A DNA stretch of 64,000 nt. Source: Streptococcus sp. 29887. Lineage in GTDB: Bacteria; Bacillota; Bacilli; Lactobacillales; Streptococcaceae. Below are positions 36,428 to 63,578 of this stretch, in pieces (positions within the stretch are counted from its first letter, which is position 1; each line of letters starts with the position of its first letter). The stretch is taken from the NCBI RefSeq assembly GCF_032595075.1, contig NZ_CP118735.1, positions 958,001 to 1,022,000 on the forward strand. Direction: 5' to 3'. Position numbers and translations under genes: made by a program. The notes below the pieces were generated by a model that saw only the letters and a program-made list of their open reading frames with translations, searched no databases and was not told where the DNA came from.

Positions 36428-36456
36428 TTGAAAACGTTTTTAAGAAATGGTATAAT
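36428..36456 (+). promoter_or_regulatory. promoter of the nucleoside operon with cre-like site
   Basis: TTGAAA (36428-36433), a 17-bp spacer, TATAAT (36451-36456) with upstream TGG. The segment TGAAAACGTTTTTA (36429-36442) matches the CcpA consensus TGWAANCGNTNWCA except at one position. Only 6 bp separate the -10 from the ATG. Confidence 0.65.
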
Positions 36457-61855: not shown

Positions 61856-63007
61856 ATGTTAGATTTGAAAGAATATGGAATTGATATGTGGCCTGAAGAA
61901 AAGGCTCAAGCTTTTCGTAAGGCACTTTTGGATTGGTATGATGCCAATAAAAGAGATTTACCTTGGAGAAGAACCAGGGATCCGTATGCAATCTGGGTAT
62001 CCGAAATCATGCTCCAACAGACACGGGTGGATACTGTTATTCCTTACTACGAACGGTTTCTTCATCACTTGCCGACTATTGCTGATTTGGCTAAGGCTCC
62101 AGAGGAGGTCATTCTCAAACTATGGGAAGGTTTGGGGTATTATTCCCGTGTTCGCAATATGCAACAGGCAGCTCAACAAATGGTGGACGACTTTGCAGGG
62201 CAATTTCCGACCACGCATGCGGAAATTTCTAGTTTGAAAGGCATAGGTCCCTATACTGCTGGAGCCATTTCAAGTATTGCCTTTAACTTGCCAGAGCCAG
62301 CAGTGGATGGCAATGTTATGCGTGTTCTCAGTCGTCTATTTGAAGTGGATTACGACATTGGCTTGCCAGCTAATCGCAAGATTTTTCAAGCTGTGATGGA
62401 AATTTTGATAGACCCCGACAGACCCGGAGATTTCAACCAGGCTTTGATGGATTTGGGTTCTGATATAGAATCACCAGTCAACCCACGCCCCCAGGACAGT
62501 CCAGTCAAAGACTTTAGCGCGGCCTATTTAAACGGCACCATGGACAAGTACCCTATCAAAGCACCAAAGAAAAAGCCAGTTCCAGTTGCATATCAAGGTT
62601 TTATTATCCGCAATAAAGACAATCAATTTTTATTGGAAAAAAATAATGAAGCCGGGCTCTTATCGGGGTTTTGGTCCTTTCCGCTTTTGGAAAAAGGGGC
62701 AGTCGTTGACAAACAAGTTTCCCTCTTTGAAGTTGCAGAAGAAGTTGTACAACTAGATATTCGGCAGAGCTTTACAGAACATTATGGCATGGCTGTTGAT
62801 TGGCAGAAGCAAGAATTTGACACCGTTCAGCACATTTTCAGTCACCGCAAATGGCAGATAGAATTGGTCGAAGGAGTTGCAGAAACAACCAAACTTCTAG
62901 GAACCAAAGAATTAAAATGGGTTTCCGTAGAAGATTTTCCTATCTATCCCTTTGCCAAACCCCAGCAGAAGATGTGGGAAGCATATGTTAAAAAAATTGA
63001 GCAATAA
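61856..63007 (+). CDS. mutY: A/G-specific adenine glycosylase lacking the iron-sulfur cluster
   Basis: A 383-residue DNA glycosylase that removes adenine mispaired with 8-oxoguanine. The helix-hairpin-helix is SSLKGIGPYTAGAISSIAF, followed by AVDGNVMRVLSRLFEV with the catalytic Asp/Glu region and MLQQTRVDTVIPYYERF. A C-terminal MutT-like domain is present. The 4Fe-4S cysteines are absent: the region reads GSDIESPVNPRPQDSPVKDF, and I count no cysteine anywhere from the chosen start. ATG 61886 is an alternative start, but the earlier N-terminus looks conserved. Confidence 0.94.
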   Translation: MLDLKEYGIDMWPEEKAQAFRKALLDWYDANKRDLPWRRTRDPYAIWVSEIMLQQTRVDTVIPYYERFLHHLPTIADLAKAPEEVILKLWEGLGYYSRVRNMQQAAQQMVDDFAGQFPTTHAEISSLKGIGPYTAGAISSIAFNLPEPAVDGNVMRVLSRLFEVDYDIGLPANRKIFQAVMEILIDPDRPGDFNQALMDLGSDIESPVNPRPQDSPVKDFSAAYLNGTMDKYPIKAPKKKPVPVAYQGFIIRNKDNQFLLEKNNEAGLLSGFWSFPLLEKGAVVDKQVSLFEVAEEVVQLDIRQSFTEHYGMAVDWQKQEFDTVQHIFSHRKWQIELVEGVAETTKLLGTKELKWVSVEDFPIYPFAKPQQKMWEAYVKKIEQ

Positions 63008-63033: not shown

Positions 63034-63062
63034 TTGATAGCGTTTTCTAAAAGTGGTATACT
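63034..63062 (+). promoter_or_regulatory. strong promoter of the candidate RNA
   Basis: TTGATA (63034-63039), a 17-bp spacer and TATACT (63057-63062), with TGG before the -10 (extended). It points into a stretch without a gene. Confidence 0.75.
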
Positions 63063-63068
63063 ATTCTT

Positions 63069-63548
63069 AGAAGAAATCAGATAATGAAGTTGAGATGTTG
63101 AACGCCATCTATCCTGGTTGAAAGGAGTATTCCAGCGTTCATTTAATCAAGCTAACTACTAGCCATTTTCTCCAAAGGACGATGGCTAATAGGGGAAAAG
63201 TCCGTTATCCCTACTTTGATGCCCAAAGGCATCTGTTGGCAAAATGCTTAGCATTCACTCACACTTAGCCTTGCTACCCAGTTCAATCAAAAGTAGGCTA
63301 ATCCTTATTCGTGTCGTAAATACTGTATGGTCAAGGTAGATCCTTGGCTAGCAACCAAGAAAATCAGAAAACCTCTAGTGATTTTCATCATAATAAGCAA
63401 TCTCCACACTTAGACAACAAAATAAGAGGACAATCAAAGACATAAGGGTAGCAGAATAATTACTTAATCATTAACTATTTGTCGTGCAACTTTGGTAATG
63501 GACTTTTCCAATTTAAAAGACAAAAGGGAGGCTGAAAGGCCTCCTTTT
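63069..63548 (+). ncRNA. candidate structured RNA of about 480 nt
   Basis: No convincing reading frame, yet the interval has a near-consensus promoter and an intrinsic terminator. Local helices read by eye: GAACGC/GCGTTC (63100-63105 with 63135-63140), TAGCCAT/ATGGCTA (63160-63166 with 63182-63188), TAGGG/CCCTA (63190-63194 with 63209-63213), GATGCC/GGCATC (63218-63233), AATGC/GCATT (63243-63255), TTAGCC/GGCTAA (63265-63270 with 63296-63301), CTTGG/CCAAG (63343-63359) and AAAATCA/TGATTTT (63360-63385). It does not look like rnpB, tmRNA or 6S RNA to me. It could instead be two shorter RNAs or the remnant of an element. Confidence 0.45.
63522..63548. terminator. bidirectional terminator
   Basis: AAAAGGGAGGC, tgaaa, GGCCTCCTTTT. 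It ends the candidate RNA and also serves the convergent S24 gene. Confidence 0.8.
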
Positions 63549-63578
63549 CGCTATTGTTATGTTTGGCTTTCCTATATG

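Follow-up and report, generated by a model that had tools for sequence, protein, structure and literature searches.

What occupies the gap between mutY and the convergent Peptidase_S24 gene in Streptococcus sp. 29887? In the window analysed here, a stretch of 64,000 nt from this 2.3-Mb genome (G000) whose positions serve as coordinates throughout, the 3' ends of mutY (Pfam domains HhH-GPD and NUDIX_4) and of the convergent gene, assigned by Pfam, lie at 63007 and 63579; between them, positions 63034-63548 contain both a promoter and an intrinsic terminator. The first-pass annotation had described about 480 bp without a gene at this place, and indeed the longest sense ORF contained in it has 33 codons; a 49-codon frame with a TTG start extends from 63492 across the terminator as far as 63641. 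The same annotation had proposed a TTGATA-17-TATACT promoter with an extended -10, which is present and conserved in homologues, and a terminator at the end of the region, which was located as an intrinsic stem-loop (Table 1). Its suggestion of a DNA-damage context, drawn from an S24 repressor and mutY, is unsupported, since an S24 match was found in the flank of just 19 of 29 homologues; in one genome (G164) the convergent neighbour is a phosphoglucomutase gene.

Promoter, terminator and cre-like element

Promoter-like sites in a stretch of 801 bases numbered three, compared with 2.5 expected in shuffled sequences, so that the scan alone is not significant. The promoter is credible because it is conserved in homologues, and the -10 was found in 25 of 25 homologue sequences; the start of the RNA was placed 7 bases past it. 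Terminator-like sites numbered two (one per strand, formed by the same palindrome) against 0.7 expected, and the T run of the terminator is short (TTTT, then CGC).

The -35 box is overlapped by a cre-like element, a candidate binding site for CcpA. The cre consensus is TGAAARCGYTTTCA, from which 23 of 25 homologues deviate by two mismatches, L022 by three and L070 by five; the element is kept over the -35 box in 24 of the 25 homologues measured and is lost in L070. Most relatives carry TGAAAGCGTTTTAT or a variant ending in -AC, L080 carries TGAAAACGCTTTAC, and the corresponding position reads TTGAAAACG (twice), TTGAAAGCG and TTGAAAATG in four members added later. The pattern TTGAWARCGYTTT, which was composed after the homologues had been inspected, matched the window five times with at most one mismatch (1.26 expected), exactly at 36428 and 63034, the former site (36428-36440) reading TTGAAAACGTTTT. 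At the S. suis gene apuA, CcpA binds a cre over the -35 box and is thought to repress (PMC3958366), and the 6S RNA promoters of lactic acid bacteria have cre sites that overlap their -35 (PMC8414754). We consider it rather likely that the RNA is controlled by carbon source through the cre-like element, and our best guess is that CcpA probably represses its promoter: as the element covers the -35 box, the promoter would probably be closed by CcpA on a preferred sugar, and the RNA should therefore increase as glucose drops.

Table 1. Features of the mutY-proximal RNA locus, in window coordinates.
Feature	Positions	Strand	Basis
Promoter: -35 TTGATA (63034-63039), 17-base spacer, -10 TATACT (63057-63062), TG upstream	63034..63062	+	consensus scan; aligned in homologues
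Cre-like element TGATAGCGTTTTCT, candidate CcpA site overlapping the -35 box	63035..63048	+	best match to TGAAARCGYTTTCA
Predicted RNA, ~480 nt	63069..63550	+	promoter, terminator, fold, relatives
Hairpin P1 (TGAACGC / GCGTTCA), loop motif GAAAGGAG at 63120-63127	63099..63141	+	homologue alignment
Hairpin P2 (CTACTAGCCAT / ATGGCTAATAG)	63156..63192	+	RNAalifold: both sides changed in several pairs
Long-range helix, 5' strand GGAAAAGTCCGTTATC	63194..63209	+	covariation
Hairpin TTAGCCT / AGGCTAA, loop carrying a pseudoknot 1 strand; without covariation support	63265..63301	+	alignment
Pseudoknot 1, 5' strand TGCTACCC	63272..63279	+	covariation
Hairpin GAAAATCA / TGATTTTC, loop CCTCT (63372-63376)	63359..63386	+	homologue comparison
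Nearly invariant strand AAGCAATCTCCACACTT, candidate contact site	63395..63411	+	homologue comparison
Pseudoknot 1, 3' strand GGGTAGCA	63446..63453	+	covariation
Long-range helix, 3' strand GGTAATGGACTTTTCC	63494..63509	+	covariation
Intrinsic terminator stem-loop	63523..63548	+	terminator scan

Fold and covariation

Several local helices are predicted in the RNA, and the fold of 63066-63550 has a minimum free energy of -131.7 kcal/mol compared with a mean of -103.7 for dinucleotide shuffles (z -4.82; equalled by 0 of 100 shuffles). Across ten homologues folded without the terminator, z of the sense strand ranged from -5.7 (L070) to a weak -1.2 (L022) and was also weak in L016 (-2.0); the antisense strand of the same ten also beats its shuffles (z -1.0 to -3.7), and its z lies below that of the sense strand in L016, L020 and L022. 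The loop of P1 is of the GAAAGGAG type in 23 of 25 homologues (a variant in L016, not found in L070) and stays so in L020 and L022 while the sequence of the stem is substituted. RNAalifold predicted 64 pairs on 17 homologues, 21 of them with double-sided change, from an alignment that omitted L007 and L011 as well as the diverged pair L020 and L022 and in which the 3' ends of L024-L026 are misaligned. Because this alignment spans the promoter, nine of the 64 pairs involve columns that precede the predicted start of the RNA, of which they cannot be part.

The covariation called for in the first-pass annotation is seen across 29 homologues in the long-range helix and in pseudoknot 1. When the best uninterrupted stem was sought, 25 of 25 sequences yielded the homologous long-range helix, with 10 pairs in L016 and 11-17 in the others; in a control of stem length on six sequences, 0 of 100 shuffles of each did as well. 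Anchors located the strands in the four members added later, so that the helix is recognisable in 29 of 29. Over the 29 genomes, which contain 15 distinct strand pairs, 92.9% of cells are paired, and this drops to 41-59% when the helix is rotated by 1-3 positions. Both sides have changed at 11 of the 16 positions. Shuffles, which ignore relatedness, average 4.8; a count of 11 is attained in 14 of 5000 when whole strands are shuffled and in 0 of 5000 when columns are. The first 13 positions are 98.9% paired and include eight that are double-changed, and 20, 3, 4 and 2 genomes show 0, 1, 2 and 3 mismatches respectively, so that 9 of 29 have 1-3 mismatches in the 16 pairs.

Pseudoknot 1 occurs as 11 distinct strand pairs with 97.7% of cells paired (no mismatch in 26 genomes, one in three), reading GCTACCC/GGGTAGC in most, GCTATCC/GGATAGC in L025 and ACTGCCC/GGGCGGT in L022. 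Four of its eight positions are double-changed against a mean of 1.1, a value reached by 19 whole-strand and 7 column shuffles of 5000. For both elements the strands of diverged members were placed by best-stem search or by anchors chosen by eye, so that pairing guided the placement; since relatedness was ignored as well, the counts lean towards structure and are not probabilities. A possible second pseudoknot, between CCTCT (63372-63376) and AGAGG (63425-63429), is without covariation, broken in L016 and shortened in L008 and L015. On the strength of these comparisons the RNA is very likely a conserved structured noncoding RNA.

Relatives, synteny and resemblance to known RNAs

Homologues were identified in at least 29 of 284 Streptococcus genomes. 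By blastn, 22 of 247 genomes of the genus matched, among them one chance promoter match (G010/L021) that was dropped. A sequence-only model (R1) of 63358-63455, built from 12 sequences, gave 22 strong matches in 284 genus genomes (E at most 7.5e-18), followed by a weak tail; at E 0.01 it reached 40 genomes, namely the 22 strong ones (including the 12 from which the model had been built), G281 and G136, and 16 others. The matches in G281 (L070) and G136 (L022, L073) lie after mutY, have the core and were accepted. Six of the remaining 16 tail genomes were inspected and all 16 stay outside the homologue count: L071 lies upstream of its mutY, and L072 and L074-L077 resemble one coding family by eye. 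A motif search downstream of mutY in 30 genomes without strong R1 match revealed a diverged homologue in G059 (L080), and blastn with L080 brought in G251, G164, G115 and G151; blastn with L022, L123 and L070 gave no further accepted homologue. As R1 missed the L080 lineage, all homologue counts are lower bounds.

In 276 genomes of the order, R1 (E 1e-4) picked out G000 and G150 and, in a different family, one ORF. A match within a relaxase-like ORF, judged by eye, is not a homologue (L170), nor were L128-L130 judged to be; L130 has a similar promoter (cre-like element, TATGAT) at ~1490-2060 ahead of a long ORF with a signal-peptide-like start. Partial matches without a mutY match (L134, L135, L137, L141 and L143) and matches with neither mutY nor the cre-promoter pattern (L152, L154 and L155) were likewise not counted. 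A 19-base motif of the RNA was present in 12 stretches of the GTDB collection, 11 of them Streptococcus suis contigs and one an unrelated MAG contig.

Most homologues are 460-551 nt long (25 measured), and the cores of L070 and L080 measure ~390 nt. In L010, L011 and L012 a GAAAATCAC...CCTATAG half-hairpin is tandemly duplicated in the RNA region, and L124 has an insertion (~1210-1500) with a repeated GAATTCG.GCTAAAAGCTCGG unit between promoter and core. The homologue in G281, which has lost the cre-like element, is followed by a transposase-like sequence (by eye) and is perhaps a decaying copy; another copy of Srn266 lies ~1.2 kb from it (L070 162-271).

A mutY match is found in the fetched flank of 28 of 29 homologues, the exception being G164, which has the RNA without such a match; together with the S24 counts this means that the locus is largely stable and that its association with S24 is not constant. 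By eye, the sequence 3' of the RNA in L022, L080 and L125 resembles the gene end seen in G164. In L026 and L018 (G197) mutY may be interrupted, as its best match covers residues 258-382 only. Phage and plasmid records gave no match to the RNA, and among eight motif matches in IMG/VR the sole true one (L042) comes from flanking host sequence that includes mutY and a portion of S24, the other seven having unrelated context; the presence on mobile elements that the first-pass annotation had thought worth checking was thus not borne out, and a phage or plasmid origin was rejected.

Rfam 15 has no family at gathering score over 63034-63548 (at lax thresholds the best is STnc50, 28.3 bits against a cut-off of 55), and in the whole window it recovers only Srn266 (RF02822; 33701-33811, minus strand, 108 bits). 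Five homologues likewise gave nothing at gathering score except an unrelated Srn266 elsewhere. The earlier proposal of a new large structured RNA is strengthened by this result, by the covariation and by homologues that do not look like a decayed gene. OLE, GOLLD and ROOL are RNAs of several hundred nucleotides with long-range pairing and pseudoknots; the RNA described here shares their size class, long-range pairing and pseudoknots, but it has no match at gathering score in the Rfam scan, no phage or plasmid match and a fixed chromosomal locus. 6S RNA (RF00013) is in lactic acid bacteria likewise a noncoding RNA with a cre-like site over the promoter -35 (PMC8414754), but is 160-200 nt long and rod-shaped, and it was rejected because the only RF00013 match of the genome is at another locus (C1:2223386-2223579). 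rss03 resembles our RNA as an intergenic S. suis RNA that is also found in close relatives and has a conserved promoter and terminator; it measures 303 nt in ST1/ST7, ranges over 149-423 nt within S. suis, and has a variable middle and a GUGGGGGG element (PMC12005413). It was rejected by size and motif, as 29 of 29 homologues lack that element and contain no GTGGGGGG. sRNA23, another intergenic S. suis sRNA, differs in size (302 nt) and was rejected by its locus between SSU05_0634 and SSU05_0635 (PMC8667912).

Alternative readings and mode of action

An ordinary mutY 3' UTR, spacer or decayed gene would fit an element that follows mutY in nearly all genomes, and in the motif search 29 of the 30 genomes without strong R1 match show no such element after mutY. 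This reading is hardly credible in view of a terminator and a promoter of its own that is conserved out to L020, L022 and L080, of a helix and a pseudoknot that covary, and of G164, which keeps the RNA without mutY in the fetched flank; as far as comparative analysis can tell, this is a real structured RNA family. Very improbable, too, is a messenger for a small protein or a dual-function RNA: homologues conserve a Shine-Dalgarno-like AAAGGAG and some contain longer ORFs (75-83 codons in L003, L004 and L005, 69 and 59 codons in L022), but no start codon follows GAAAGGAG at the usual distance in the homologue sequences inspected, indels among homologues do not come in multiples of three, and a comparison by eye of 25 homologues, each represented by its two longest ORFs, found no peptide common across lineages, upon which a small-protein gene was rejected. 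It is possible, if doubtful, that the RNA has been described in S. suis before, as an sRNA with a different name. Differential RNA-seq of S. suis P1/7 (Wu et al., 2014) gave 29 sRNAs, as cited in two later papers (PMC4438229, PMC4960207), and may already include it; against this, rss03 and sRNA23 differ as described above, and a search of the literature on mutY-adjacent or small and structured RNAs returned, among the matches listed, no title recognisable as such an RNA. The structured family is apparently uncatalogued, set apart from rss03 by size and motif and from sRNA23 by locus, and the covariation and the cre-like promoter are new points.

How the RNA might act is approached through the strand AAGCAATCTCCACACTT, which is near-invariant in the main lineage (with variants in L015, L016 and L022) and was not found in the L080 lineage. 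With at most three mismatches, the own genome holds five forward and seven reverse near-complements of it, compared with five and three for the reversed pattern; one is the RNA gene itself, five of the other 11 lie inside same-strand ORFs of more than 400 codons, and none was seen in this genome at the Shine-Dalgarno of a long ORF. Near-complements little above the control leave long antisense pairing unsupported, so that short CUCC pairing or protein binding are the routes that remain, and base-pairing is itself a doubtful mode of action. An apparent RNase P-like resemblance of GGAAAGUCC was rejected; a full complement of that strand lies downstream. A structural or catalytic RNA, working as a ribonucleoprotein or ribozyme and not by pairing with mRNA, would account for the size, the long-range helix and the pseudoknot, for the lack of a long antisense target above control, and for an L080 lineage that retains the core without the candidate pairing strand. 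We regard it as unlikely overall: neither a protein partner nor a chemistry is known, the distribution is narrow, and the L070 and L080 cores are far shorter. Less probable still is its bolder form, a new class of large pseudoknotted ribonucleoprotein or ribozyme RNA, restricted to the S. suis lineage with a few related bacteria and derepressed from CcpA when the preferred sugar ends; in the main lineage, the AAGCAAUCUCCACACUU strand and the GAAAGGAG loop would serve it for docking or as active elements.

Our cautious preference is for a structured noncoding RNA under CcpA control that acts in trans by whichever route. The family, its promoter and terminator, the long-range helix, pseudoknot 1 and the conservation of the cre-like element are shown at the level of sequence. 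The ~480-nt RNA, of an undescribed family seen only in Streptococcus, would be transcribed independently, its core closed by a long-range helix of 13-16 bp, and a hairpin loop would pair ~170 nt downstream as a pseudoknot. CcpA would shut the promoter on a preferred sugar and the level of the RNA would rise when glucose falls. The RNA would then most likely act in trans, in the main lineage perhaps with the near-invariant AAGCAAUCUCCACACUU strand as contact, for example through CUCC with a few Shine-Dalgarno regions or by protein binding.

Bacterial RNAs as large as this one in which a long-range helix and a pseudoknot covary are, to our knowledge, few. In S. suis, a zoonotic species, the expression of virulence genes is linked to carbon catabolite control (PMC3958366). 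The RNA has a fixed place on the chromosome of this species, and a 0.5-kb RNA would be expected to go up on glucose withdrawal and in a ccpA deletion.
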